64,000 nucleotides of DNA from Chloroflexota bacterium (lineage in GTDB: Bacteria; Chloroflexota; Anaerolineae; CG2-30-64-16): the NCBI GenBank assembly GCA_026389845.1, contig JAPLHB010000105.1, positions 62,001 to 126,000 on the forward strand, given 5' to 3'. Positions 60,038 through 60,128 of the stretch are shown here, one piece after another. The stretch's first letter is position 1, and each line of letters opens with the position of its first letter. The notes below the pieces were generated by a model. The model was given only the letters and a program-made list of their open reading frames with translations. It was not told where the DNA came from and ran no database searches. Both the position numbers and the translations under genes were made by a program.

Positions 60038-60128
60038 ACGTACCACGTACCACGTACCACGTACCACGTACCACGTACCACGTACCACGTACCACGTACC
60101 ACGTACCACGCTTTACGTTTTGCGTTTT
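60038..60128. repeat. Heptamer array (ACGTACC)x10 ACGCTTT ACGTTTT GCGTTTT
   Basis: Ten perfect units plus three degenerate units read directly. Confidence 0.97.

Follow-up and report, generated by a model that had tools for sequence, protein, structure and literature searches.

In the stretch of DNA analysed here (the window, 64 kb), a membrane protein of 1239 amino acids that combines an O-antigen ligase domain (Wzy_C; Pfam PF04932) with TPR repeats is encoded on the plus strand at 60192–63911. Relatives of this protein occur in 57 of 60 related genomes, and the one named relative is from a ‘Chloroflexi bacterium’ MAG. The upstream gene (59064–59981, plus strand) encodes a NYN (YacP-like) protein with HEAT repeats (PF05991 and PF13646), and its stop codon (59979–59981) is spanned by about four copies of a G-rich 9-nt repeat, GGGAACTGA (59973–60011, plus strand), which stands where this genome commonly has a G-rich arm after stop codons.

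Between the two genes lies (ACGTACC)10 (60038–60107, plus strand), a 70-bp array in which all ten units are perfect, followed by ACGCTTT (60108–60114), ACGTTTT (60115–60121) and GCGTTTT (60122–60128). The array has the highest Tandem Repeats Finder (TRF) score (146) among short-period arrays in the window, and five first-order shuffles of the window yielded zero period-7 arrays; a perfect repeat of 70 bp is beyond chance expectation. No Rfam match was found at the array locus.

A conserved predicted promoter and a corrected gene start

Alignment of the upstream DNA with that of orthologues from other genera revealed a common σ70-like promoter, TTGCGT-N17-TAAGAT, at 60120–60148. Anchored on TAAGAT, the block (TTGCGTTTT...GCGGTAAGAT) is free of gaps across seven further genomes of the family, which represent six other genera, and a looser version is retained in G007, G008 and G001; on both sides of it, identity is about 0.2–0.5. 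The −35-like hexamer TTGCGT (60120–60125, plus strand) is conserved in the eight aligned loci, with its first T and its G invariant, and the −10-like hexamer TAAGAT (60143–60148, plus strand) follows after 17 bp. Also invariant in 8/8 loci are the two Ts that follow the −35 block and the GGTA..AT of the −10 block. TTGCGT-N16–18-TAAGAT occurs once in the window, against a chance expectation of 0.00. Judged by its conservation, the block is most simply read as a σ70-type promoter. A consensus σ70 scan of 59900–60300 returned no site, and it misses the conserved promoter too, because TTGCGT matches TTGACA at only three of six positions.

This alignment changes how the heptads are counted. The earlier note had described a heptamer array at 60038–60128, and every unit lies where it was placed, but the last three of its ‘thirteen units’ (60108–60128, plus strand) belong to an older, heptad-periodic −35 region. 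NCGTTTT-type heptads stand at the equivalent place in G003, G005 and G009, none of which has an ACGTACC array, and this rules out the three as decayed array copies. The perfect array, immediately 5′ of the −35 region, has no counterpart in the orthologous loci aligned from other genera, and no match to three units of ACGTACC was found in 59 related genomes. From these comparisons the array appears to have been added in the lineage leading to this genome, in register with the older −35 region.

The gene start moves as well. An ATG at 60147, about 18 bp past the heptads, had been taken as the start; it overlaps the −10 box, which includes its AT, and so cannot start a message made from this promoter. 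The start is instead ATG 60192, the residue from which the orthologues align, and a separate coding-score gene caller likewise chose it. The AGGA upstream (60183–60186, plus strand) is the probable core of a Shine–Dalgarno sequence and has the form AGGA(T/A)CG in G003, G005 and G009 as well. The perfect array ends 84 bp before the corrected start and would lie outside the open reading frame, outside the 5′ untranslated region (UTR) of the transcript predicted from this promoter and outside the −35/−10 spacer, which is fixed at 17 bp. Nor could 7-nt steps shift the reading frame, as the earlier note had considered for an open reading frame beginning further upstream: because the array is upstream of the −35 box, slippage would leave the frame, the spacer and the 5′ UTR unaltered.

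Another heptad, (ACTCGTC)2, lies in the 5′ UTR just 5′ of the Shine–Dalgarno sequence (60169–60182, plus strand). The same 5′ UTR site has about seven units of the ACTCGTY family in G005 (L116:8273–8320, minus strand) and two here, so heptad number changes between genera at this gene; in G009 a degenerate run of the same family occupies that place. Within the O-antigen ligase gene, a 42-nt in-frame repeat is present twice at 61691–61778, the copies being 91% identical, and a string like GGTCGGAGACCGGCCAGAGCC from this repeat recurs intergenically in relatives (L110, L116 and L156).

Heptad arrays across the genome and their polarity

The genome to which the window belongs (6.84 Mb in 228 contigs; completeness 93.9%, contamination estimate 8.1%) was surveyed through sampled stretches chosen without regard to repeats (the window, L068–L109 and L131–L150). 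We found 160 period-7 arrays in the 1.004-Mb sample. A 715-kb subsample contained 121 of period 7 and 0–19 of each period that is not a multiple of seven. Extrapolation gives perhaps about a thousand period-7 arrays genome-wide, a number that is only approximate because density was lower in a later 290-kb sample (24 arrays). The units fall into dozens of families. ACGTACC arrays of at least three units occur on eight contigs, and elsewhere in the genome this unit mostly abuts stop codons, not promoters.

Most arrays are intergenic (92 of 131); the other 39 were placed in coding sequence by a home-made gene caller, which may run on into arrays. Genes 3′ of arrays include those for EF-Ts, ClpC, a class I tRNA synthetase (W/Y type), leuA, leuB, leuD, glpX, DNA polymerase III delta and parts of ABC transporters, with a few polysaccharide genes. 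Pfam assignments for 30 array-downstream genes point mainly to core metabolism, translation, proteostasis and transport, again with a few polysaccharide genes, and arrays are not concentrated at surface or host-interaction genes. That they precede mainly housekeeping genes speaks against the arrays, taken as a class, serving as contingency loci, and the position of one of them before a surface-polysaccharide gene is thus no evidence of a contingency locus. A recurring intergenic inverted repeat with TCTGAGCGGGT, in part preceded by TCATTC (L070:14805, L107:18682, L133:9469 and L134:12888), is probably a separate dispersed repeat family.

The arrays obey a rule of polarity. Where two arrays with differing skew lie within 150 bp of each other in the unbiased sample, the G-rich one comes first and the C-rich one second in 26 of 26 pairs (p = 3 × 10−8; five further pairs with equal or undefined skew were left out), and the order is also 3:0 in relatives. 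Relative to genes, of 39 arrays that start within 10 nt of a stop codon, 35 are G-rich on the sense strand, and of 32 that lie 10–30 nt before a start, 29 are C-rich on that strand. The stop and start counts rest on the home-made gene caller and could be biased by it, whereas the pair order is independent of strand and unit family and requires no gene calls. A general intergenic skew was considered as the cause, but array-free intergenic regions are only weakly skewed. Nor is the polarity a general rule for non-heptad intergenic inverted repeats, for which the order is 30:15 in this genome and 7:7 in relatives. Between two minus-strand genes in the window (55502–55594), 8-nt repeats, GTGACAAG and then TGTCACCT, form a G-then-C inverted pair, which suggests that the polarity is not limited to heptads.

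The same strand rule has been published for the heptameric simple sequence repeats (SSRs) of Xanthomonas and Nostoc (Anabaena), GGGAATC and GGGGA(C/T)T, for which G-quadruplexes were considered; there, the coding strand is the G-rich one after stops, and the non-coding strand is the G-rich one before starts (PMC4692102). The likeness is extensive: units of 7 nt, which is the dominant SSR period here, in mostly intergenic arrays spread genome-wide, not tied to surface genes and of the same polarity. Unlike the single G-quadruplex family of each of those genomes, however, there are dozens of families here, most without GGG (for example, GTGGTAC, GTTGCGT and GGATTGC); ACGTACC/GGTACGT itself has only GG. 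G-quadruplexes therefore cannot be the general cause of the polarity, and the published strand rule holds for many heptads unable to form them. The ACGTACC array of the window is in neither position of the rule: C-rich on the sense strand and more than 60 bp before the start, it represents a minority arrangement.

Marine Beggiatoaceae provide another comparison, with intergenic TAACTGA direct repeats just 5′ of start codons for which a role in translation was proposed (PMC4679880). Many of the heptad arrays described here are likewise just upstream of starts, but TAACTGA is one unit throughout with no RNA structure predicted, whereas here many families follow a polarity of G-rich and C-rich arms.

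The leuC–leuD intergenic region

At leuC–leuD (L064:10008–10233), this genome has (GTGGTAC)n past the leuC stop codon and (ACACGCA)n before the leuD Shine–Dalgarno sequence. In the orthologous loci compared (L173, L174, L175 and L179), the arms consist of other heptads: GAGACGG/CCGTCTT in G008, GTCAGGC/CTGACGC in G004 and ACTGCGT/AATCCGC in G009. G006 has a degenerate G-rich and C-rich arm, G005 and G003 have mainly the C-rich arm, and G001 and G002 are nearly without intergenic DNA. Near-perfect stem-loops are predicted for G008 (z = −7.6), G004 (z = −5.8) and G006 (z = −4.0), but not for G003 (z = −1.8) or G009 (z = −0.6). In the genome of the window, only four in every seven bases pair between the two arms, and their fold is worse than that of dinucleotide shuffles (z = +3.5).

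Across this genome, complementarity between arm units exceeds that of permuted pairs (p = 0.0002 in the unit test and p = 0.001 in the duplex test), in a set that counts one pair twice and includes loci picked for ACGTACC. Hairpins fail as a general explanation here, given the fold of this genome’s own leuC–leuD region; strong hairpins are shown only for some relatives, and we regard the hairpin reading as promising but uneven. Orthologues of the EF-Ts, leuB, glpX, clpC and ADH genes are mostly without arrays, which occur mainly in the genome of the window; there is thus no gene-by-gene conservation of arrays except at leuC–leuD. The intercistronic stem-loops of E. coli, REP and BIME, resemble the leuC–leuD hairpins in being intergenic inverted repeats, but REP is a conserved sequence family, whereas here the architecture persists and the sequence is replaced between genera.

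One speculative possibility, which we hold to be rather doubtful, is that the intergenic regions of this Chloroflexota family follow a self-renewing layout of G-rich heptads after the stop codon, a short loop and C-rich heptads before the Shine–Dalgarno sequence. Polarity would be kept while the heptads are replaced between genera, with complementarity restored through slippage and palindrome correction. If so, the layout would amount to a type of intercistronic hairpin, in RNA or DNA, whose hallmarks are polarity and 7-nt periodicity and not a particular sequence, and the polarity of the Xanthomonas and Nostoc repeats would be explained as well. With unrelated heptads in an equal layout across genera, leuC–leuD makes it directly testable why bacteria favour 7-nt repeats and what maintains these in intergenic DNA.

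Possible roles of the ACGTACC array

We consider it likely that the ACGTACC array is an intergenic heptanucleotide microsatellite next to a conserved promoter, grown by slippage and with either no effect or a mild graded one. Replication slippage would most likely have produced it, starting from or adding to the heptad-periodic tract of the −35 region, and the gain or loss of units would displace only the DNA further upstream, 7 bp for each unit. A change in unit number would then leave expression as it is or alter promoter strength mildly and by degrees. Slippage is the most likely origin, and a strong regulatory role is most likely absent, with little or no effect of the array on expression; it probably does not serve as an on/off switch dedicated to the surface gene.

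The earlier note had proposed that an array so near the gene start could alter expression. The part of this proposal that stands is that the array is long, perfect and prone to slippage, and that it abuts a promoter: ten identical units imply recent homogenization, so the locus may still change and could affect expression. It does not lie beside the start codon, and similar arrays precede core genes. A real precedent is Haemophilus influenzae hmw1A/hmw2A, in which promoter heptads, (ATCTTTC)n, grade expression; at hmw1A the last heptad overlaps the −35 box of promoter P1, more repeats give less transcript, and the effect acts through the upstream promoter P2, with the repeats in the P2 5′ UTR (PMC2424069, PMC8262952). 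Any copy-number effect here would be graded, as at hmw1A. By analogy, unit number might tune a surface-polysaccharide enzyme in graded steps and create heterogeneity in the population. The anatomy matches, because GCGTTTT (60122–60128) adjoins and overlaps the −35 box (60120–60125) of a surface-related gene, and the array is long and perfect. The hmw arrays, however, are flanked by two promoters and belong to a host-adapted pathogen, in which they vary, whereas here one conserved promoter is recognized, no counterpart of P2 was recognized (by a scan that also misses the conserved promoter) and comparable arrays stand before core genes genome-wide. Tuning of this kind is, in our judgement, unlikely, and at this locus the phase-variation story gives way to a predicted promoter and a corrected start.

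Two other roles seem more remote than such tuning. The least probable reading makes the array the C-rich half of a stem-loop between the two genes, acting in read-through mRNA on stability or coupling: the G-rich repeat past the upstream stop followed by a C-rich array fits the 26 of 26 ordered pairs, and at leuC–leuD such pairs give near-perfect hairpins in G004, G006 and G008, but the predicted fold of RNA 59979–60135 does not surpass that of shuffled sequences (z = −0.75), there is no complementarity between the 9-nt and 7-nt units, and the array is separated from the Shine–Dalgarno sequence by a promoter. Very improbable, too, is a tandem operator or upstream activating element, with the array bound unit by unit by a regulator that stimulates the adjacent promoter. 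The ACGTACC unit is conserved at the promoter in no relative and has its usual place beside stop codons, points that outweigh a position directly 5′ of the −35 box and the retention of NCGTTTT heptads there in several genera. Each ACGTACC unit holds the palindromes ACGT and GTAC.
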